Shown: piece after piece, positions 7,379-29,212 of the stretch
Position numbering within the stretch: the first letter of the stretch is position 1
Layout: the number at the start of each line of letters is the position of its first letter
Assembly: GCA_007693325.1 (NCBI GenBank)
Contig: REDW01000115.1
Span: 1 to 61,056, forward strand
Direction: 5' to 3'
DNA length: 61,056 bases
Origin: Spirochaetaceae bacterium
GTDB lineage: Bacteria > Spirochaetota > Spirochaetia > DSM-27196 > PWMO01
The notes under the pieces: model-generated
Told to the model about the DNA's origin: nothing
Database searches by the model: none
What the model saw: only the letters and a program-made list of their open reading frames with translations
Position numbers and translations under genes: made by a program

Positions 7379-8461
7379 ATGAACATCGGCCTTATCGGTT
7401 TACAGAAGTCAGGCAAGACCACAATCTTCAACGCACTCACCGGGCAGAGTGCCGAAGTCTCAGAGTATGTCTCGCAGAAGCTCGAGCCAAATGTGGCGGT
7501 GGTCGACGTCCAGGACGAGCGCGTGACGCGCCTGTCCGAAATGTATCAGCCCAAAAAGACCATCTTTGCCACGGTAGAGTTCATCGATTTTGCCGGGCTT
7601 TCAGCGGGGGCCGCCGAGCACGGGGTCTTCTCAGGCGCCGCGATGCAGTTGATCAAGAACGCCGATGCGCTCTGTGTGGTAGCGCGCAACTTCCATGACC
7701 CGGTGATCGACGAGACACACGGGAGCCCCGATCCGGTGGCAGAAGTGGAGACTATTGCCACCGAGTTGATCCTGGCCGACTTGATTGTTGCCGAGCGTCG
7801 TCTGGAACGCATCGCTCACGATCTGCAGCGCGGCAAGAAGACGCCGCAGCTGGTCTCCGAGCAGAAGCTGATCGAGCGTCTGGCGGCTCACCTCACAGAA
7901 GGGCAGCCGCTGCGGACCCTGGATTTGAGCGCTGAAGAGCGCAAGGCGGTTGCCGGGTTTCAGTTCCTCTCGGCCAAGCAGATGTTTGTGGTGCTCAATT
8001 CCAGTGAGCAGAGCTACGGCAACAGTAACGCCGCGATAGATGCTATTGCGCAGCACTACGCGGTGGTTGAGTTCGCCGGAAGCTTTGAAATGGAGCTGGG
8101 CCGGCTGGACAGCGACGAGGAACGCCAGGCGTTCATGCAGGATATGGCTATCAGCGAGTCGGCGCAGAAACGGCTGACAGCCTTTGCCTACCGAACGCTC
8201 GGCTACATCAGTTTCTTCACCGTTGGCAAGGACGAGGTTCGTGCCTGGACCATACGCCAGGGGCAGAATGCAGTTGACGCCGCCGCTGCGATACATTCCG
8301 ACCTGGCGCGCGGTTTTATCCGCGCTGAAGTATTCAGCTATGATGATCTGGTGCACTACGGGTCGGAGAAAGCCGTCAAGGACGCCGGGAGGTTCCGCGT
8401 TGAGGGCAAGAGCTACATCGTAGCCGACGGCGATATCATCAACGTACGCTTCAGCGTGTAG
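7379..8461 (+). CDS. YchF/OLA1-family GTPase/ATPase, divergent
   Basis: The 360-residue length and layout match YchF (about 363): an N-terminal P-loop domain (GLQKSGKTT, residues 7-15), a G3-like DFAGLS, a helical insert, an NxxE nucleotide-specificity element (NSSE) in place of the NKxD of true GTPases, and a C-terminal TGS domain ending in the family pattern ARGFIRAEVFSYDDL...GRFRVEGKSYIVADGDI. YchF proteins bind ATP and associate with ribosomes. The P-loop (canonical GLPNVGKST) and other positions are more divergent than usual, so this may be a second paralogue instead of the main YchF. No Shine-Dalgarno sequence is visible before the ATG. Confidence 0.8.
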   Translation: MNIGLIGLQKSGKTTIFNALTGQSAEVSEYVSQKLEPNVAVVDVQDERVTRLSEMYQPKKTIFATVEFIDFAGLSAGAAEHGVFSGAAMQLIKNADALCVVARNFHDPVIDETHGSPDPVAEVETIATELILADLIVAERRLERIAHDLQRGKKTPQLVSEQKLIERLAAHLTEGQPLRTLDLSAEERKAVAGFQFLSAKQMFVVLNSSEQSYGNSNAAIDAIAQHYAVVEFAGSFEMELGRLDSDEERQAFMQDMAISESAQKRLTAFAYRTLGYISFFTVGKDEVRAWTIRQGQNAVDAAAAIHSDLARGFIRAEVFSYDDLVHYGSEKAVKDAGRFRVEGKSYIVADGDIINVRFSV

Positions 8462-8539
8462 CGGCAGGCCGGCCTTTCGGCTCAAAGACATAATCGACCG
8501 CCGTTCCATGCACAAATTCCAGTAGAGCCTGACATATTC

Positions 8540-8568
8540 CTGACAAAACCGCTCGTCTGCAGTATACT
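8540..8568 (+). promoter_or_regulatory. Sigma70-type promoter for the DUF3179 gene
   Basis: CTGACA (8540-8545) lies 17 bases upstream of TATACT (8563-8568). The expected start near 8575 gives a leader of about 45 bases with a GAGGAGGA ribosome site just before the ATG at 8619. Spacing and both boxes are close to consensus. Confidence 0.6.
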
Positions 8569-8618
8569 TGTAGTTACATATATAGCGACTCGTATACGCA
8601 TTGCAGAGGAGGAATACT

Positions 8619-9908
8619 ATGAAACGCAATTTTCTTGTTTTGTTGCTGCCGGCGCTGCTGATCATTGCCGCGGTGACGCTATTTGCCGGCGGTGGCCGCG
8701 AGCAGGCCGGCGAAAATGACTCGCAGCAGGACGCTCTCTCCGCTGCGCCCGGTGAACGGGCACAACAGGAGATGCGGCGGTTGGCTACCATCGGTGCCGA
8801 GTTGCGCACCGACGGCGGTACCTATGTGCCGCTGGAGCTGCCGCCGGAGTTGCAGGATCAGCCGCCACCGAGTGGAGCCGCTCAGTTCAGCACTGACTTC
8901 TCGCGCGCGCTGATATCGTATCGCGAGGTGGTTGCCGGCGGTCCGCCCAAGGACGGTATACCGGCAATCGACAACCCGCAGTTTGTCTCGATGTCCGAGG
9001 CGCAGCGGTGGATGCGTGGTGATGAGGCGGTGCTGGCTGTGACAGTGAATAACACGACGCGGATCTACCCGTTACAGATTCTGATGTGGCACGAGATTGT
9101 CAACGATGAGGTGGGTGGGAAACCGCTGGCGGTGACCTACTGTCCGTTGTGTAATACCGGTGTTGTTTTCGAGCGCACGTTTGACGATCAGCTGCTCGAT
9201 TTTGGTGTTTCGGGACGGCTGATCTATTCCAACATGATCATGTACGACAGGCAGACCGAAACGTGGTGGATACAGGCCACCGGCCGCGGTGTAGCCGGCC
9301 GCTACGCCGGGCAACAGCTGGCGTTCGTCCCGTCGATGCTGATTTCGTGGAGCGAAGCAGAAGCCGGCTTCGCGGACGCCGAGGTGCTCTCGTTTGAGAC
9401 CGGCTACCGCCGGGACTACGGACGCAACCCCTACGTGGGCTACGACAGTTCAACAAGCCCGTTTCTCTATCGCGGGCCGGATGTTGTAGCCGCAGACAGC
9501 GAGAATCCGATGACGCGAGTTCTGTCGGTGTATCACGGTGATGCCGTTGCCGCCGTGGGTTTCCCCGAACTGGAGGCCCAGCGGGTTATCGAGCGTGAAC
9601 TCGACGGCACGCCGGTGGTGGTATTCTGGGCACCGGGAACAGCCAGCGCGCTGGACGACGGTTGGGTTGCCGGTGGGCGAGACGTTGGTACCGCCAACGC
9701 GTTCTATCCCGAGGTCAACGGCCGTTCACTGACCTTTACCGTCGAGGCCGGGCAGATTATCGATCAACAGACCGCGAGCGTGTGGAACGAAGCCGGGCGC
9801 GCAATTGAAGGAGATCTGGCAGGGAGCCGCCTGGAGCCGGCACTGTCGATACACCACTTTCTGTTCTCGTGGCGGGCGTTTCACCCGGCGTCATCAGAGA
9901 CAAACTGA
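8619..9908 (+). CDS. DUF3179 domain protein, exported
   Basis: The 429-residue protein starts at an ATG behind a strong GAGGAGGA site and has an N-terminal signal peptide (LLLPALLIIAAVTLFAGGG) with no lipobox cysteine. The rest matches the DUF3179 pattern: DGIPAIDNPQF, a WHEIVND segment, the signature CPLCNTGVVFER with its CxxC-type cysteine pair, SGRLIYSNMIMYDR and TWWIQATG. The function of this family is not established. The two cysteines could bind metal or form a disulfide in the periplasm; that is inference. The 3' end overlaps the convergent acyltransferase gene by 28 bases. Confidence 0.8.
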   Translation: MKRNFLVLLLPALLIIAAVTLFAGGGREQAGENDSQQDALSAAPGERAQQEMRRLATIGAELRTDGGTYVPLELPPELQDQPPPSGAAQFSTDFSRALISYREVVAGGPPKDGIPAIDNPQFVSMSEAQRWMRGDEAVLAVTVNNTTRIYPLQILMWHEIVNDEVGGKPLAVTYCPLCNTGVVFERTFDDQLLDFGVSGRLIYSNMIMYDRQTETWWIQATGRGVAGRYAGQQLAFVPSMLISWSEAEAGFADAEVLSFETGYRRDYGRNPYVGYDSSTSPFLYRGPDVVAADSENPMTRVLSVYHGDAVAAVGFPELEAQRVIERELDGTPVVVFWAPGTASALDDGWVAGGRDVGTANAFYPEVNGRSLTFTVEAGQIIDQQTASVWNEAGRAIEGDLAGSRLEPALSIHHFLFSWRAFHPASSETN

Positions 9909-10570
9909 ACGTAGTCGGTGGTCATCTTCGACAGGTCAGCGTAATCGCCGCGCAGCTCGGGCGGCAGCAGAACCGCCAGCTGGTACATCATCTCGTCGAC
10001 CATCTGCCTGCGGTCCGCCGAGGTGATGGAGCCGCCTCCGGGTTTGCGCAGCCGGAACGGCTTACCCACGCGCACGCTGACCGGGGTTCGCTTGAGGCGT
10101 TTCAGGTTTGTCTTGAGATCGAGCAATCCCCAGTGAACGATCGGAAAGAGAGGCACGTCCTTGCGGGTTGCCAGCAGGGTAGCACCCGGTTGCCCTTTAC
10201 GAAGCTTGCCGGTCTTGCTGCGGGTGCCTTCGGCCGCCATTCCCAGGATGTAGCCTTCATCGAGCGCCCGCATGCACGCGCGCATCGCGTTGCTGTCTAC
10301 GCCGCCGCGCGCGATCGGGATGATGTTCCAGGTATTCATGTACAGGCGCGTGACGGGGTTGTCCCACAGTTCGCGTTTGGCCAGCGCGGTCATTTTGCGC
10401 GGGCGTAAGAACACGTAGTAGAGCGGGCCCTCGATGTTGGTCACGTGGTTGGACAGTAGCAGCGCAGGTCCATCCCACGGGATGGACTTCATTTCTTCGG
10501 CGTCGATTCTGCAGGTCGCATGCAGCAGTAAACGGGTGAAGGCGTTGAGAACGCGTTCCTTGAATTTCAC
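9881..10570 (-). CDS. PlsC-family 1-acyl-sn-glycerol-3-phosphate acyltransferase
   Basis: This enzyme is expected to acylate lysophosphatidic acid in phospholipid synthesis at the inner membrane face. The 229-residue protein has an acyltransferase core beginning with NHVTNIEGP (motif I) and AAEGTRSKTGKLRKGQPG (motif III, EGTRS), followed by PIVHWG. In motif I the usual H-x4-D reads H-x4-E. The GTG start at 10570 has CGGAGG seven bases upstream. The gene lies 88 bases downstream of speB in the same direction, and a possible -10 (TACAAT, complement of 10592-10597) suggests its own promoter. The substrate acyl chain and exact step cannot be told from sequence. Confidence 0.8.
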   Translation of the reverse strand: MKFKERVLNAFTRLLLHATCRIDAEEMKSIPWDGPALLLSNHVTNIEGPLYYVFLRPRKMTALAKRELWDNPVTRLYMNTWNIIPIARGGVDSNAMRACMRALDEGYILGMAAEGTRSKTGKLRKGQPGATLLATRKDVPLFPIVHWGLLDLKTNLKRLKRTPVSVRVGKPFRLRKPGGGSITSADRRQMVDEMMYQLAVLLPPELRGDYADLSKMTTDYVQFVSDDAG

Positions 10571-21809: not shown

Positions 21810-23480
21810 TCAGCTGCGCGGCTCGATGCCCCGTTTGCGGAACCGCGCCACTATCTGTTCGAAGCTCAATCCGTAACCGCGGGCGACGTCGTGCGCGTAG
21901 CTGCTGCCGTACGGTGGGGCAAACCGAATCCGGTAGGTGCGGCGGCCGCCGTGCTCGTCATCGTTCTCAACTTCAGCGCGCAGGCTTACTACGCGGTCGC
22001 TGCGGTTGTCAGCTCCGGCGTCTGCGCCCGCCGCGGCGTTGATCTGTTCGCAGCGCGCAGCCAGATCGTGCAGGTGTGTGGCAAAGAGCGTACGGACGCC
22101 CAACTGACGCAACGCGCGCATCAGCTCTTCGGCGATCCCTGCCGCCTCCATTGGCCCGGTCCCCGACAGTGACTCGTTGCACAGTATCAGGCTGTGCGGC
22201 GTCACCTGCTCCATAATCGAGGATAGACGCTGCAGCTCCTCGGCAAAGCGGCCGGTGGGCTCGCCGGCCGACTCGCGAACCGGAAAGTGAGTCCATATCC
22301 CGTCTACGGGACTGATGCGCGTTTGTCCGGCCGGTACAAACAGGCCAGCCTGCGCCAGCACCTGGATAATGCCGGTGGCCTGCAGGTAAGTAGTCTTGCC
22401 GCCGTGATTGGGGCCGGTGAGAATCTGGATCCGGTGATCGCGGTCAAACTGAATATCGTTGCTGACTACGGTTGTGCTCGGCTGGTGGCTGGTTTCCGTG
22501 GCGCGTAGCGCCAGATGCAGATTGTACGCACCGCGGGCATGAAGGCAGCGCTCCTCTGCCGCGGCAACTTCGGGAGCGCTGATCTCAAAACCCGCCCGTT
22601 GCAGATGCTGCATCAGGTTGACTGCACCGATGTAGAAGCGCAGCTGCGGTTCCAGACAGCGCAACAGCGACGTGTTGGCCTGCAGGTAACGCTCCAGGCC
22701 GCGCTGCAGCGGACGCGCCACATCCCGCAGCAGTTTCTCGATATCGCGAAACAACGGCGCCAGCGGCATCTTGCTTCCCGGCGGATAATTGAGCGCCGCC
22801 GCGGAAGGCGAGCGGTGTAACGGCGTCGCGCTGAGATACTCCGAACTGCGACCCAGAAGACTTCCCATCAGAGTGTTGTCCCTGAACGGCCGTTCGTTGA
22901 CCGACAGGAGCGCAGCCTCTACCGGCCGCAGGCGTTCATCGAGATTGATGCCAACCGTAACACTACGGCGTTTCTGCAGCGCGGCGCGCATGCTCGGAAG
23001 TTCAGCGCTCAGTTCACCAAACTCCGCCGAGTTGACCCGCTCAGTCAGCTCGGCAGCCAGGGTGGACAGCGCACTGCTGCTGTGCAGGCTGCGCAGTGTC
23101 TGCTGCAGCTGTGCGGTGCACTCAACGTAGAGCTCGAGCTCACCGAGGCGCCAGATCGCCTGCAGCAGCGGGCTGTCGGACTCTCCGGCAGCGCGTGCAA
23201 AGGAGGTAAGCTCTCGCATGGGTTCAATGGTCTCGCGCAGCGAGTCACAGACGTGAGGATTGTCAAAAAGACCAAACAGGATCTGTTGGCGGTAGTCGAT
23301 TACCGCGGCGTCACGCGGAGGGTTACGCAGTACATCCAGTACCAATTCTGCACCAACGCCGTCAGGCGATATCGCGCGCGCCAGCTCGCGCAGTCCCAGA
23401 TCGACGACGGTATCCTCCGGCAGCAGGATGGGCTCGTTATGCGGAACCCCTGGTGGCCAGAGCAGGTCAATCATCGCCAT
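21810..23480 (-). CDS. MutS-family ATPase (MutS-like, domain V type)
   Basis: The 556-residue protein has only the core and ATPase part of MutS: a long helical region resembling the MutS lever and clamp, then Walker A GPNHGGKTTYL, a Q-loop-like region, a Walker B-like LILCNESLSGTGPMEA, and the switch histidines in ATHLHDL. Walker B reads N-E where classical MutS has D-E. No mismatch-recognition domain (F-x-E) is present, so it is not the mismatch repair MutS. The ATG at 23480 overlaps the TGA of the upstream ABC ATPase by one base (TGATG), which implies translational coupling to the peptide transporter operon. The role is unknown. Confidence 0.75.
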   Translation of the reverse strand: MAMIDLLWPPGVPHNEPILLPEDTVVDLGLRELARAISPDGVGAELVLDVLRNPPRDAAVIDYRQQILFGLFDNPHVCDSLRETIEPMRELTSFARAAGESDSPLLQAIWRLGELELYVECTAQLQQTLRSLHSSSALSTLAAELTERVNSAEFGELSAELPSMRAALQKRRSVTVGINLDERLRPVEAALLSVNERPFRDNTLMGSLLGRSSEYLSATPLHRSPSAAALNYPPGSKMPLAPLFRDIEKLLRDVARPLQRGLERYLQANTSLLRCLEPQLRFYIGAVNLMQHLQRAGFEISAPEVAAAEERCLHARGAYNLHLALRATETSHQPSTTVVSNDIQFDRDHRIQILTGPNHGGKTTYLQATGIIQVLAQAGLFVPAGQTRISPVDGIWTHFPVRESAGEPTGRFAEELQRLSSIMEQVTPHSLILCNESLSGTGPMEAAGIAEELMRALRQLGVRTLFATHLHDLAARCEQINAAAGADAGADNRSDRVVSLRAEVENDDEHGGRRTYRIRFAPPYGSSYAHDVARGYGLSFEQIVARFRKRGIEPRS

Positions 23481-24493
23481 CACGGAATCGAGCGTGGTTT
23501 GAGCTCGGCTTCGGTATAGATGCAGGCGCTGAACTGCTTCGGCCGGCGCTCCAGCAGCCGGTGGTCGCAGCCGGCACAATCGCTCTGCGCAAACGGACAG
23601 CGCGGCGTGAAACGGCATCCCTCTGGAAGGTTGATCTGATCCGGCGGAGCGTCATCAACGCTGACTTCTGCGCGTACGTAGTCAGGGTCGGCCACCGGGA
23701 CCGAACTCACCAGCACCCGGGTGTACGGGTGTTGCGGATACGCAATGACTTCATCGGCAGGGCCTATCTCTACGATCTTTCCCAGGTACATCACCGCAAT
23801 ACGGTCGCAAAGATACTTGATGGTTGCCAGATCGTGTGAGACGTAGATCATGGTCAGACCCATACGCCGGCGTAGCCGTTTCAGCAGATTCAGGATGTCG
23901 GCACGGATCGAGACGTCGAGCATCGATACCGGCTCGTCCGCAATCAGCACCTTTGGCTCCAGCACAATGCCGCGTGCAATGGCAACACGCTGTCGCTGGC
24001 CTCCCGAGAGTTCGTGTGGAAAGCGGTGCAGGTAGTTTGCCGCCGGTTTGAGTTCGGCAATCTCCAGCGACTCGCTGACGCGGCGCGCGATCTCGGACTT
24101 GAGGCGGACCCCGTGAATTCTCAGCGGTTCAGCTATGGTTTCAAAAACGTTGAAGCGTGGGTTGAGCGTCTCGTAGGGATCCTGAAAGATCATCTGCACC
24201 TCGCGCCGGAAGCGCTTGCGGTCGGCGCGGGTGTCCGCCTCCAGCGGGTGGCCGTCGAGCAGAATGACGCCAGAAGTGGCCTCCTGCAGACGCACGATGA
24301 TCTCACCGGTGGTAGTCTTGCCTGATCCGCTCTCGCCGGCCAGTCCCAGAATCTCGCCGCGCTCGACCTCCAGTGAGATATCGTCAACCGCGCGTACATA
24401 GTGCTGCTCTCTGTCAAACAGCCGGCGCAGCCTGCGGCGCACCGGATAGTACTTGGTCAGCTTCTCAACTTTTATCAATGGTCCGTTACTCAT
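23480..24493 (-). CDS. Oligopeptide/dipeptide ABC transporter ATP-binding protein (OppF/DppF type)
   Basis: This is the second ATPase of the importer. It has Walker A GESGSGKTT, the signature LSGGQRQRVAIARG, Walker B VLIADEPVSMLDVS, and the C-terminal oligopeptide-transporter extension with cysteines (GCRFTPRCPFAQSDC), giving 337 residues from the ATG at 24493. That ATG overlaps the stop of the OppD-type gene by four bases (ATGA). With its partner it should form the heterodimeric cytoplasmic motor. The transported peptide is not evident from sequence. Confidence 0.93.
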   Translation of the reverse strand: MSNGPLIKVEKLTKYYPVRRRLRRLFDREQHYVRAVDDISLEVERGEILGLAGESGSGKTTTGEIIVRLQEATSGVILLDGHPLEADTRADRKRFRREVQMIFQDPYETLNPRFNVFETIAEPLRIHGVRLKSEIARRVSESLEIAELKPAANYLHRFPHELSGGQRQRVAIARGIVLEPKVLIADEPVSMLDVSIRADILNLLKRLRRRMGLTMIYVSHDLATIKYLCDRIAVMYLGKIVEIGPADEVIAYPQHPYTRVLVSSVPVADPDYVRAEVSVDDAPPDQINLPEGCRFTPRCPFAQSDCAGCDHRLLERRPKQFSACIYTEAELKPRSIP

Positions 24494-25530
24494 TGCTGCG
24501 GCGTCTCCTGCTGTTCGATCCGCGTGCGGACAGCTTCCCACGTATCGCGGTTGCGTGCCCGGGTGCGGAAATCATTGACCTGGTCGGTATACCAGCAGGC
24601 CGCGTGATGGTTCGATTTGACCTTCACCAGCGGCGGGGTCCGGCTGCGGCATTGGCTGGTGGCGAATGGACAACGCTCCTGAAAACGGCAGCCTGGCTGT
24701 TCCTGCATCAGGTTGGGTGGTGTCCCCGGGATTGAGACCAGCTCTTCACCGGTGATGTCGGTGATGCTCGGGAAGGCGTTCTGCAGTCCCAGCGAGTATG
24801 GGTGGTACGGCGCGCGAAAAAAGCTTGCGCTATCGGCCTGTTCCATGATCTTGCCGCCGTACATTACGATGATTCTTTCGCAAATCTCGCTGACTACCGA
24901 GATATCGTGGGTGATGAAGATCATGGAAGTCGAGATCTGCCTCTGGATCGCCCGGATGCGCTGCAGGATGCGACCCTGCACCACCACGTCCAGCGCAGTT
25001 GTCGGCTCATCAGCAACGATAATATCGGGCTCCAGTGAGAGCGCCATAGCGATGATTGCACGCTGCTTCATACCGCCGGAAAGCTGGTGCGGATAGCTCG
25101 ACAGGCGTTTTTCTTCCAGTCCCACCATACCGAAGACCTCGACGCAGCGCGCATGCGCCGCGTGCCGGCCGATGTTCGAGTGCGCAAGGATACCTTCCCT
25201 GATCTGGTGGCCGACGGTGTACACCGGGTTGAGCGAGTTCATCGCGCTCTGCGACACCAGCGCGATCTTGCTGTGACGGATGCGGCGCATATGGTCGGGG
25301 CTCTTGCCTACCAGGTTCTCGCCGTGGAACAGTACTCTACCGCCGGAAATCGCGCCGTTTTCGGGCAGCAGCCGCAGCAACGCCTTGGCCACGGTGGTCT
25401 TGCCGCATCCCGATTCACCGACGATTCCCAGGCTCTCGCCGCGTTGGAGGTTGAACGAGACATCATCCACGGCCTTCAGAACGCCGTCCTCGGTAGTGTA
25501 TTCGATACTTAGATTCTGTACTTCCAGCAT
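24490..25530 (-). CDS. Oligopeptide/dipeptide ABC transporter ATP-binding protein (OppD/DppD type)
   Basis: The 346-residue ATPase has Walker A GESGCGKTT, the signature LSGGMKQRAIIAMAL, Walker B IIVADEPTTALDVV, and the C-terminal cysteine-containing extension (GCRFQERCPFATSQC) typical of OppD/DppD. It pairs with the OppF-type ATPase encoded immediately downstream with a four-base overlap. The start is 12 bases beyond the stop of the OppC-type permease gene. It belongs to the importer operon that begins with the binding-protein gene at 29175. Confidence 0.93.
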   Translation of the reverse strand: MLEVQNLSIEYTTEDGVLKAVDDVSFNLQRGESLGIVGESGCGKTTVAKALLRLLPENGAISGGRVLFHGENLVGKSPDHMRRIRHSKIALVSQSAMNSLNPVYTVGHQIREGILAHSNIGRHAAHARCVEVFGMVGLEEKRLSSYPHQLSGGMKQRAIIAMALSLEPDIIVADEPTTALDVVVQGRILQRIRAIQRQISTSMIFITHDISVVSEICERIIVMYGGKIMEQADSASFFRAPYHPYSLGLQNAFPSITDITGEELVSIPGTPPNLMQEQPGCRFQERCPFATSQCRSRTPPLVKVKSNHHAACWYTDQVNDFRTRARNRDTWEAVRTRIEQQETPQQ

Positions 25531-25542
25531 GGTGTACTCTTC

Positions 25543-26454
25543 TTATCGCTTTCTCAGACGGGGATCGACAACGGCCTCCAGCGACCGCGCTACAAAGAAA
25601 ATCGACAATAGCAGCAGCACGATGGCAAGCCCCGGTGGTGCGGTCCACCACCACGCCAGCCGCGAGTAGCCCGAGACGAAGTTGATATGCAGGATCTGTC
25701 CCCAGCTAGTCACGCGCGGATCGCCGAAACCGAGGAAAGCAACGCTGGCCTCAGCCATAATCGCCCAGTTGACCATGAACGCCATTTCCAGCAGCACCAG
25801 CGGTATGACATTGGGCAGAATGTAGCGTGCCATGATGCGCACGTGCCCGGCGCCGGCAACCCGGGCTGCCTTGATGTAGGGCCGCTGCGCAATCGAGAGA
25901 ACCTGCGACCGCACGATACGCGCAACAGTACGCCACGAGAGCAGCGAGACCGCCAGAATGATATTCCACATGCTCGGTTGCAGAATTGCCGAAAGAACGA
26001 TGACAAACGGTATAAACGGTATTGCGTAGAAGAAGTCGACTATCCGCATCAGTACGGTGTCAATCCAGCCGCCGAAGTAACCGGCAATGATGCCGACCAC
26101 CGACCCAACCAGCGTAACCAGCACGGCGGCCAGAAAGCCTACCGTCAACGCGGTACGGGTTCCCAGAATCACCTGGCTGAAAATATCGCGGCCTACGTCG
26201 GTGGTACCAAAGGGGTACTGCCACGACGGTTGTTCCAGCCGCCGGATAGAGCCCTCGGCGTCATAGTGCCGCTCGCGCGGCCCGTGCGGGGCCAGGCTTT
26301 CGGCAAAGACGCCGATAAAGATGAAGCAGAGCAGCAGAATCACGCCGAACAGTGCCAAACGGTCACGCTTGAGATTGGACCAGAAGATGTAGAACAGGCT
26401 CTGCCTGTTGACGGAACGTCGCGACCTGATCTTCATACTCGCTTCATCCTTCAT
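25543..26454 (-). CDS. ABC transporter permease (OppC/DppC type)
   Basis: This is an inner-membrane permease of about 303 residues with an N-terminal membrane helix preceding the BPD_transp_1 domain, as in OppC. Visible features are a first hydrophobic helix (LFGVILLLCFIFIGVF), GTDVGRDIFSQV-like TTDVGRDIFS, several further helices, and the EAA loop (RVAGAGHVRIMARYILPN). An internal ATG at 26436 is an alternative start. It overlaps the OppB-type gene by four bases. With OppB it forms the translocation channel. Confidence 0.92.
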   Translation of the reverse strand: MKDEASMKIRSRRSVNRQSLFYIFWSNLKRDRLALFGVILLLCFIFIGVFAESLAPHGPRERHYDAEGSIRRLEQPSWQYPFGTTDVGRDIFSQVILGTRTALTVGFLAAVLVTLVGSVVGIIAGYFGGWIDTVLMRIVDFFYAIPFIPFVIVLSAILQPSMWNIILAVSLLSWRTVARIVRSQVLSIAQRPYIKAARVAGAGHVRIMARYILPNVIPLVLLEMAFMVNWAIMAEASVAFLGFGDPRVTSWGQILHINFVSGYSRLAWWWTAPPGLAIVLLLLSIFFVARSLEAVVDPRLRKR

Positions 26455-27422
26455 CTGTACGCGATTCGCGGATCGAGAAAGGCGTACAGGATGTCCGCCA
26501 CCAGATTCATGAACATCACCAATGCGGAAATTATGATGAAGATGCCCTGTGCCAGCGGGTAATCAGAACGCGTGACCGCTTGAACAATCTCGCGTCCCAG
26601 TCCGGGCCAGCTGAAGACAACCTCGATCAGCACCTGCCCACCGATAGCAGCGCCAATGAACAGGGCGCCTGCGGTTACCACAGGAAGCAGTGCGTTGCGC
26701 GCAGCGTGCTTGTAGAGTACGCTGCGGTCGCGCAGGCCCTTGGCGCGAGCCATTTCGATGTAGTCCTCGGACATCACCTCCAGCATGCTGTTACGCATGA
26801 TCAGAAGCGGTGTAGCCAAAAAATAGAGCCCGGCAACAAAAGCGGGCAGAATCAGGTGGCGCACAAAATCACGGTTCAGGAACACCTCGGCAAAGCTGTC
26901 GCCAACGTATCCGGTGGTGCGCATGCCCTGGGCTGGAAACCAGCCCAGGGTCACCGAGAAGAGCATGATTGCCATCAGCCCGACCCAGAACGTTGGTGCC
27001 GATCTGAATATCAGGCTGAACGTGACCCCAACCGACTCCAGCCGCGAGCCGCGGTTCCACGCCATCCAGGCGCCCCACAGAATACCGAACGTATAGGCAA
27101 ACAGCATCGCAGTGAGCATAAGGATCAGCGTTGCCGGCAGCCGATCCCCGATCACGCGCAGCACGGTGCGGTTGTAGAAGTAGGAGTTGCCAAAATCCAG
27201 CTGTACCAGGTCCCTCATGAAAATCCGGTACTGGGTCCACAGACTTTCATGAAGGCCGTAGCGCTCGAGCAGCGCCTGACGCGCTTCACGCGGTATCGAC
27301 GGATCAACCATGCTGGCGGTTGGATCTCCGGGCATCGTGCGGAACATGAGAAAGATCATCGTGGCTACCAGCAGCAGCATCACGATCATAATCAGAAGCC
27401 GTTTCACGATATAGGCTAACAC
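26451..27422 (-). CDS. ABC transporter permease (OppB/DppB type)
   Basis: The 323-residue protein begins with the OppB-like N-terminal helix (YIVKRLLIMIVMLLL) and a periplasmic segment (MPGDPT), then the BPD_transp_1 domain with the EAA loop (MARAKGLRDRSVLYKHAARNALLP) and terminal helices. It is the first permease gene after the binding-protein gene, from which it is separated by 88 bases containing a strong stem-loop, and it overlaps the OppC-type gene by four bases. Confidence 0.92.
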   Translation of the reverse strand: MLAYIVKRLLIMIVMLLLVATMIFLMFRTMPGDPTASMVDPSIPREARQALLERYGLHESLWTQYRIFMRDLVQLDFGNSYFYNRTVLRVIGDRLPATLILMLTAMLFAYTFGILWGAWMAWNRGSRLESVGVTFSLIFRSAPTFWVGLMAIMLFSVTLGWFPAQGMRTTGYVGDSFAEVFLNRDFVRHLILPAFVAGLYFLATPLLIMRNSMLEVMSEDYIEMARAKGLRDRSVLYKHAARNALLPVVTAGALFIGAAIGGQVLIEVVFSWPGLGREIVQAVTRSDYPLAQGIFIIISALVMFMNLVADILYAFLDPRIAYR

Positions 27423-27510: not shown

Positions 27511-29175
27511 TCAGCCGCGCGGTAAGCGCAGACGCCCCTGGCTGTCCCAGGTGAAGCCGGCTTCTTCGAGAATCTCGCGTGCGCGCTCGGGGTCGTAGGT
27601 GTCGTAAATCGGCACGTCAGGGTTGTGCCAGAATTCATTGGCGGCGTTGATTACCAGCCCAGCGCCACCACGGCTGCCATAACCGTCCAGCAGAACGTCC
27701 AACGCGTAGTCGTAGTCAACCAGGTGCGCTATTGCAACGCGGAAGGCCTTGTTGTCAAACGGGGGGCGATTATTGTTCATGCCGATGTAGAAGAAGCCGA
27801 TATCCTGGGCCTCGGTCAGCTCGAGGTGGTCAAAGCGGCCGCCTTCGTTATCCTTGATCTGGTTGATGTGCGCCGGGATCAGATCGTAGGAAATCACGTC
27901 CACGTTTGCCAATTCGAGGTCGGTCAGCACACCTTCGGGCGAAGCGTAGATCTTGAAGATGTAGCCCTCGATCTTGGGTGGTTCAAAATAATCATCGAAG
28001 CGTTCGGTGACCAGTTCCTCGCCGGTGCGAAAACGCACAAACTGGAACGGGCCGCTGCCAATTGGGTTCTCGTTGGCGTACTGGGTGACATCTCCCACAT
28101 CCTCCCAGACGTGCATGGGCAGAATCGGGATCTGGGTCAGAGTGGTGGTGATGAACGGAGCGTAGGGCTCTTCGAGTACAAAGCGGATGGTATTGTCTCC
28201 CACAGCCTCTACCGAGGCAATCGGGTTGGTGAACGATGCAAAGTAGCTCTCCGGCAGATCCATCCAGGTCTGATAGCTCCATACTACGTCCTCGACCGTT
28301 ACCGGCCGGCCGTCGTGGAAGTTCATGCCCTCGCGCAGTTCTACGTCGATTGTGGTGTCGTCAACGATCTGCCATCCGGTTGCCGCCCAGGGGCGCGGTT
28401 CGACTTCGGGACTCAGGCGCACCAGTTTGTCGTAGATGAGACGCAGGTTGCGCCAGTCGTAAACGCTGCGCGCGGCAAACGGATTGAGGTTGGTGATGTT
28501 GACGTTGCTGGCAACAATCGGAACGGTGTAGTCATCCGAGATCGGCTCCATCACCATCGGGCTCCATTCGTTGAACAGGCCTTCACCCGACATGTTGACC
28601 ATGTTGCTGAAACGGGTACGGTCGTAGGTCTGGACGTTGGCGCGTGAATAGAGGGTGATGCGCGGGATGTCTTCGGCCAGGATGCGTTGCGCCTGCCATA
28701 CGATCTCGCGCCGCGCCTCGATGTCCATTTCGCGCCGCTGCGCATCGGCGAGTTCGTCGAACTCCGGGTTGACGTAGCGGCTGGTGTTGTTGGCACCGGG
28801 CACCGCGTTGGATGAATGGTTGATCGAATGGATGAACATGTCCGGATCGAGGCGCTCGACGCGGCCCGACCAGCCGATGGTATAGGCGTCGTAGTCCATG
28901 TCTTCACCGTAGATCACATCCAGCAGGACCGAAAAATCGGTCGGGCGCGCTTCCATGGTAACGCCGATCTGCGCCAGCTCGTCGGCCAGTTCCTGGGCCA
29001 TTTCGTAGTTGACCAGGTTGGCCTCGGGCAGAGAGCTCAAGATGACAAGGTTGGGCACCGGGTCACCCATCTCTTCGTCGGCCAGCTCTGCCGGTCCGCC
29101 ACACGCTGCCAGTAGCAACACAGCAGCCAGCACCGCGCTGATGGCCATCAGCCGTAGGGTGGTTTTCGCGTTCAT
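27511..29175 (-). CDS. Substrate-binding lipoprotein (OppA/DppA family 5), apparently circularly permuted
   Basis: This is the solute receptor of the importer, lipid-anchored outside the inner membrane. The ATG at 29175 follows AAAGGAG and gives a signal peptide with lipobox LAAC (Cys25). The order of the family segments is swapped. Residues about 41-215 match what is normally the C-terminal half: QELADELAQIGVTMEARP, YDAYTIGWSG, RYVNPEFDEL, then IVWQAQRILAEDIPRITLY. Residues about 216-554 match the normal N-terminal half: NLNPFAARSVYDW, LIYDKLVRL, WQIVDDTTIDVELREGM with NFHDGRPVTVEDVVWSY, and finally PERAREILEEAGFTWD followed by GRLRLPRG. The protein ends where the normal sequence would run into residue 41. 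The total of 554 residues is typical for one full binding protein, so nothing appears lost. The ligand is unknown. Confidence 0.9.
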   Translation of the reverse strand: MNAKTTLRLMAISAVLAAVLLLAACGGPAELADEEMGDPVPNLVILSSLPEANLVNYEMAQELADELAQIGVTMEARPTDFSVLLDVIYGEDMDYDAYTIGWSGRVERLDPDMFIHSINHSSNAVPGANNTSRYVNPEFDELADAQRREMDIEARREIVWQAQRILAEDIPRITLYSRANVQTYDRTRFSNMVNMSGEGLFNEWSPMVMEPISDDYTVPIVASNVNITNLNPFAARSVYDWRNLRLIYDKLVRLSPEVEPRPWAATGWQIVDDTTIDVELREGMNFHDGRPVTVEDVVWSYQTWMDLPESYFASFTNPIASVEAVGDNTIRFVLEEPYAPFITTTLTQIPILPMHVWEDVGDVTQYANENPIGSGPFQFVRFRTGEELVTERFDDYFEPPKIEGYIFKIYASPEGVLTDLELANVDVISYDLIPAHINQIKDNEGGRFDHLELTEAQDIGFFYIGMNNNRPPFDNKAFRVAIAHLVDYDYALDVLLDGYGSRGGAGLVINAANEFWHNPDVPIYDTYDPERAREILEEAGFTWDSQGRLRLPRG

Positions 29176-29212
29176 TGTGATTGACTCCTTTGGGATTGCT
29201 TTGTTGGCAGCT

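Follow-up and report, generated by a model that had tools for sequence, protein, structure and literature searches.

The closest described precedent comes from Treponema pallidum: Tp0684 (MglB-2), a glucose-binding protein of cluster B with a permuted chain, termed 'Type Ic / Cluster Bc', whose structure has been solved; MglB-2-type permuted binding proteins occur in spirochaetes and Gram-positives, and the authors proposed that the permutation may suit membrane anchoring (PMC4990184). A published permuted family-5 (SBP_bac_5, cluster C) binding protein was not found in the open-licence literature, in agreement with the initial annotation, to which no natural permutation in this family was known. 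PMC8303175, considered as a possible report of one, mentions permuted rRNA in its reference list only.

The gene at 27,511–29,175 lies in a spirochaete contig of 61,056 nucleotides (the window, i.e. the whole stretch of DNA that was analysed). Judged from its sequence, the encoded protein is a family-5 (DppA/OppA-type) binding protein whose whole chain is circularly permuted. It matched a single Pfam family, SBP_bac_5 (PF00496), in two stretches, with a score of 242.8 bits (gathering cut-off 32.4). When scanned alone, residues 26–212 matched model positions 288–365 (E = 2.5e-6) and residues 213–554 matched positions 1–285 (E = 2e-64), which are the two hits in swapped model coordinates that the initial annotation had expected of a family-5 HMM. 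Both half matches tile the model (368 positions in length) with zero overlap, and all domain segments are present. The PDB sequences 5isu, 5u4o and 8efz each gave two matches in swapped order, and the rotated sequence aligned in one collinear piece with each of the four sequences 5isu, 8efz (24–454), 1xoc and 5u4o; the linear segment order of PF00496 is thus absent from the protein as encoded and is collinear only after rotation. Since homology is certain and the order is swapped, the protein represents a permuted branch of SBP_bac_5 rather than an ordinary member. An HMM built solely from three proteins with the normal order, all encoded in the window's own genome, sorted the non-redundant ORFs into 81 permuted, 21 normal and 0 ambiguous ones. 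The circular permutation of an OppA/DppA-type protein, as first proposed, is therefore upheld by the PDB and Pfam matches, the rotation and the HMM classification. The coordinates, strand, lipoprotein signal (LAAC, Cys25), segment order and length given in that proposal were likewise correct, except that the protein does not stop right after PERAREILEEAGF: it ends 13 residues beyond it (TWDSQGRLRLPRG). The minus-strand ORF starts at ATG 29,175 and ends at 27,511; a TTG start called by the ORF finder 66 bases upstream is superfluous.

Features of the permuted gene and its operon in the window.
Feature	Coordinates	Strand	Description and basis
Circularly permuted family-5 substrate-binding lipoprotein	27511..29175	-	554 aa; Pfam, PDB matches, rotation
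Shine-Dalgarno-like AAAGGAG	29185..29191	-	9 bases 5' of ATG 29175; read from sequence
Signal peptide and lipobox (LAA-C), Cys25	29101..29175	-	sequence
Half B, residues 38-212, C-terminal part of normal members	28540..29064	-	PF00496 288-365; 5isu residues 357-461
Junction ISDDYTVPI linking ancestral C- and N-termini	28513..28539	-	placement in alignments
Half A, residues 213-554, N-terminal part of normal members	27514..28539	-	PF00496 1-285; 5isu residues 52-338
DppB-type permease, same operon	26451..27422	-	PF00528, PF19300; homologue after permuted gene in other genomes
DppC-type permease	25543..26454	-	PF00528, PF12911
DppD-type ATPase	24490..25530	-	motif and conserved operon order
DppF-type ATPase	23480..24541	-	start approximate; motif and conserved operon order

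The cut of the main permuted family falls in the same place throughout, between WDSQGRLRLPRG (a helix and short loop) and the strand VPNLVILSS, a position equivalent to about 357 in OppA and about 343 in DppA. The linker between the ancestral C- and N-termini comprises roughly ten residues or fewer in the alignments. The AlphaFold2 model (41 family members) had a mean pLDDT of 92.1 and a pTM of 0.89, and its best Foldseek matches in the PDB were family-5 proteins, with about 330–400 columns aligned at a TM of about 0.5, the value over part of the chain that is expected from a sequential aligner on a permuted chain, where mainly one half is aligned. The permuted chain would very likely fold as an ordinary bilobed binding protein, in which a short linker joins the ancestral termini and the new termini open in a loop on the other lobe. 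In OppA, both natural termini are located in domain I, and the cut of the permuted family falls in domain III; we therefore infer that the lipid anchor at the N-terminus, in the members that have one, is placed on the lobe opposite to that of DppA/OppA relatives, which would be the main mechanical difference. The lipobox Cys was present in all sampled Bacillota members (12/12) and nearly all haloarchaeal ones (43/45), in 8 of 19 spirochaete members and in 0 of 7 proteobacterial/desulfobacterial members. Anchoring as an obligatory correlate of the permutation was accordingly not supported: with the lipobox missing from 11 of the 19 spirochaete members and from the whole proteobacterial/desulfobacterial sample, it cannot be a general requirement.

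Orthologues with the same order, which had been suggested as a check in related genomes, were found there and well beyond. About 80 non-redundant relatives share both order and breakpoint, and belong to spirochaetes, Bacillota, Proteobacteria, Desulfobacteraceae MAGs and haloarchaea. Sixteen of 61 searched genomes were positive at E <= 1e-60 (the window's own counted), all of the same genus or order; among 247 genomes sampled from the phylum, the window's genome alone passed E <= 1e-50; and 32 of 97 sampled haloarchaeal genomes passed E <= 1e-45. The orthologue in Alkalispirochaeta alkalica DSM 8900 (L027) shows 82% identity. A DNA search in E. coli genomes gave no match. The Bacillota carriers are alkaliphilic (Alkaliphilus, Anoxynatronum and Evansella), and the alpha-proteobacterial carriers are Nitratireductor, Microvirga, Roseomonas and Neorhizobium plasmids. 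Phylogenetic analysis of the cyclically aligned proteins placed the permuted proteins of the main family in one clade (SH-aLRT 85), and the permeases of their operons, which are separate genes, also formed one clade (support 98). The patchy spread, together with the nesting of the spirochaete copies beside Alkaliphilus and Evansella, suggests that the main permuted family was spread by horizontal transfer. Contig SLHA01000029.1, binned as Candidatus Latescibacterota, has the whole operon with a copy that shares 76% identity with the spirochaete gene, which represents either a transfer or mis-binning. In one haloarchaeal genome (G303), two divergent permuted binding-protein genes adjoin each other (L101:5484-7256 and 8179-9927). 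Permuted members carry the bare annotation 'ABC transporter substrate-binding protein', so that methods assuming a linear order miss them.

A second permuted group with a different cut was observed in haloarchaea (L099:5568-7217, L128-L141 and L151-L154), where sisters of normal order occur in operons of the same type (L147:5079-6704, L148:7298-9025, L149:7991-9733 and L150:6961-8679). L099:5568-7217 is positioned outside the main permuted clade; 14 further sampled genomes encode full-length orthologues of it, permuted as well. The AlphaFold model of this group, with 15 sequences only, had a pLDDT of 65. The normal-order sisters, found in four genomes, show 44–49% identity in half A and 35–39% in half B; the cut between the halves is clean at L147 residues 343/348, and permuted and normal-order sisters occupy operons of one kind. 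Half A of L099 ends at PF00496 position 257, 28 positions earlier than 285, while the sisters match about 1–366 in one piece; the cut of the second group thus lies before the helix YDPEQARELL and not after it. In the tree of cyclically aligned proteins, the mixed group of permuted and normal-order proteins had 100% support and stood apart from the main family, and the permease tree likewise recovered the second group (100). The second haloarchaeal group is probably a separate permutation, two independent events being the simpler reading, although not a proven one. The protein tree puts the normal-order sisters among the permuted ones, and a clade of the main family with the whole second group, sisters included, was rejected only marginally (AU p 0.0501); both would suit one ancient permutation behind the two groups, after which a further permutation would have returned the four haloarchaeal sisters to the normal order. 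This history nevertheless appears unlikely, given that the breakpoints are 28 Pfam positions apart, that a clade of permuted proteins alone was rejected (AU p 1e-5), and that the permease tree sets the normal-order operons between the groups, where L168/L174 group with the main family (support 100). Within the second group, the permuted proteins may form one clade (p 0.12). Returning to two independent events, we tentatively propose, as a reading that falls somewhat short of an even chance, that permutation recurs in cluster C at least twice, with cuts flanking one helix (after YDPERAREILEEAGF in the main family and before the equivalent YDPEQARELL in haloarchaea) and a before-and-after pair kept in the same operon, and that the shift of termini and anchor to the other lobe may be selected for docking or tethering.

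The protein at 27,511–29,175, whose family-5 (cluster C) fold is encoded in fully permuted form, very probably serves a Dpp/Opp-type ABC importer as its extracytoplasmic binding subunit. Its operon contains two permeases and two oligopeptide-type ATPases, the DppD and DppF ATPases being assigned by motif and homology and not by Pfam. Among the roughly 80 relatives, too, the permuted gene almost always stands first in an operon of two permeases and two ATPases. At 35 loci, the order binding protein-DppB-DppC-DppD-DppF is kept as far as the contigs reach, with the exception of L044, in which DppC was unrecognised. Several divergent haloarchaeal permuted proteins (L098, L100, L104, L112 and L116) have no recognised Dpp-like permease nearby and possibly are orphans or have divergent partners. 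A gene for a 602 aa MutS-like ATPase (GPNHGGKTTY) lies directly downstream of the transporter operon on the minus strand of the window (21,810–23,618), a synteny kept in L024 and L025. In the proposed mechanism, the folded protein would capture a putative peptide or peptide-like amide and close, and the closed form would dock on the DppBC permease, powered by DppDF, for presumed import.

In other genomes, the operon neighbours are often peptidases (M28, M20, M19 and S15), creatininase, hydantoinase/oxoprolinase or Asp/Glu racemase, and these peptidase and amide-metabolising genes indicate that the ligands are probably peptides or peptide-like amides. The neighbours in the window itself (citrate synthase and the MutS-like protein) give no ligand clue. 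In DppA and OppA, an Asp (D408 and D419, respectively) holds the amino group of the peptide. The equivalent residue is not Asp in the aligned main family, nor in the second group; in its stead, an R-x-D-P motif is invariant. Because the amino-group Asp is not conserved, the ligand may be something other than an ordinary peptide, and the residue pattern suggests that the bound molecule may lack a free amino end. The same loss could be expected of a receptor or scaffold outside transport that merely keeps its operon position; yet the strict co-occurrence with permeases and ATPases and the agreement in grouping between protein and permease trees make such a protein very unlikely and favour the importer subunit.

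As to origin, the permutation itself stands, whereas the route given in the initial annotation, loss of the outer halves of a duplicated gene, is neither demonstrated nor contradicted and, if taken, would lie far in the past; a local event in this genome does not hold, the order and breakpoint being common to about 80 homologues. Sharing of both across bacterial groups and haloarchaea implies that the event is old. In textbook accounts, circular permutations arise through tandem duplication with subsequent truncation, but a recent event of this kind in this spirochaete is extremely unlikely, since the permuted clade spans bacteria and haloarchaea, the normal copies in the same genome are merely about 25–31% identical, and no fused tandem intermediate was seen among the non-redundant ORFs classified. 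Two over-long ORFs (L102:4946-7621 and L084:967-3168), considered as fused genes, were rejected as start-codon over-calls, with the signal peptide and lipobox starting at residues 311 and 162, respectively. A contig mis-joined within an ordinary gene, the refutation foreseen in the initial annotation, has a next to negligible probability, even with the window as one contig of a 150-contig genome, because dozens of independent genomes of several phyla show the identical order and breakpoint (among them cultured Alkalispirochaeta, Alkaliphilus and Evansella, the last with a 5.5 Mb contig, as well as complete plasmids and other long contigs) and dN/dS is low in both halves. Compared with L025, dN was 0.06 and dS 0.99 (dN/dS about 0.06); on these substitution rates, both halves are under purifying selection and the gene is not broken.

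The permuted branch of cluster C is old and widespread, and has apparently gone unremarked. Rarely can a natural permutation be seen in both its earlier and its later state, and here a very large family of transporter proteins is affected. The haloarchaeal sisters (L147-L150 vs L099, L153 and L154) make the effects of chain order on folding, secretion, anchoring and permease docking directly testable, and naturally tolerated permutation sites are usable for sensors built from peptide-binding proteins. Compared with the known members of SBP_bac_5/cluster C (E. coli DppA and OppA, B. subtilis AppA and Listeria CtaP), the permuted protein has the same domain segments and the same Dpp/Opp operon partners, but its halves are swapped, its new termini lie in the middle of the normal sequence and the equivalent of DppA D408 is not conserved. 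Like MglB-2, it is a binding protein of the ABC-importer type with a naturally permuted chain; however, MglB-2 has a cluster B sugar-binding fold and another cut, whereas the protein described here matches family 5/cluster C in both sequence and fold, and the suggestion that permutation serves anchoring does not hold generally for permuted family-5 proteins. The permuted order in common with MglB-2 is a shared trait, not shared descent.
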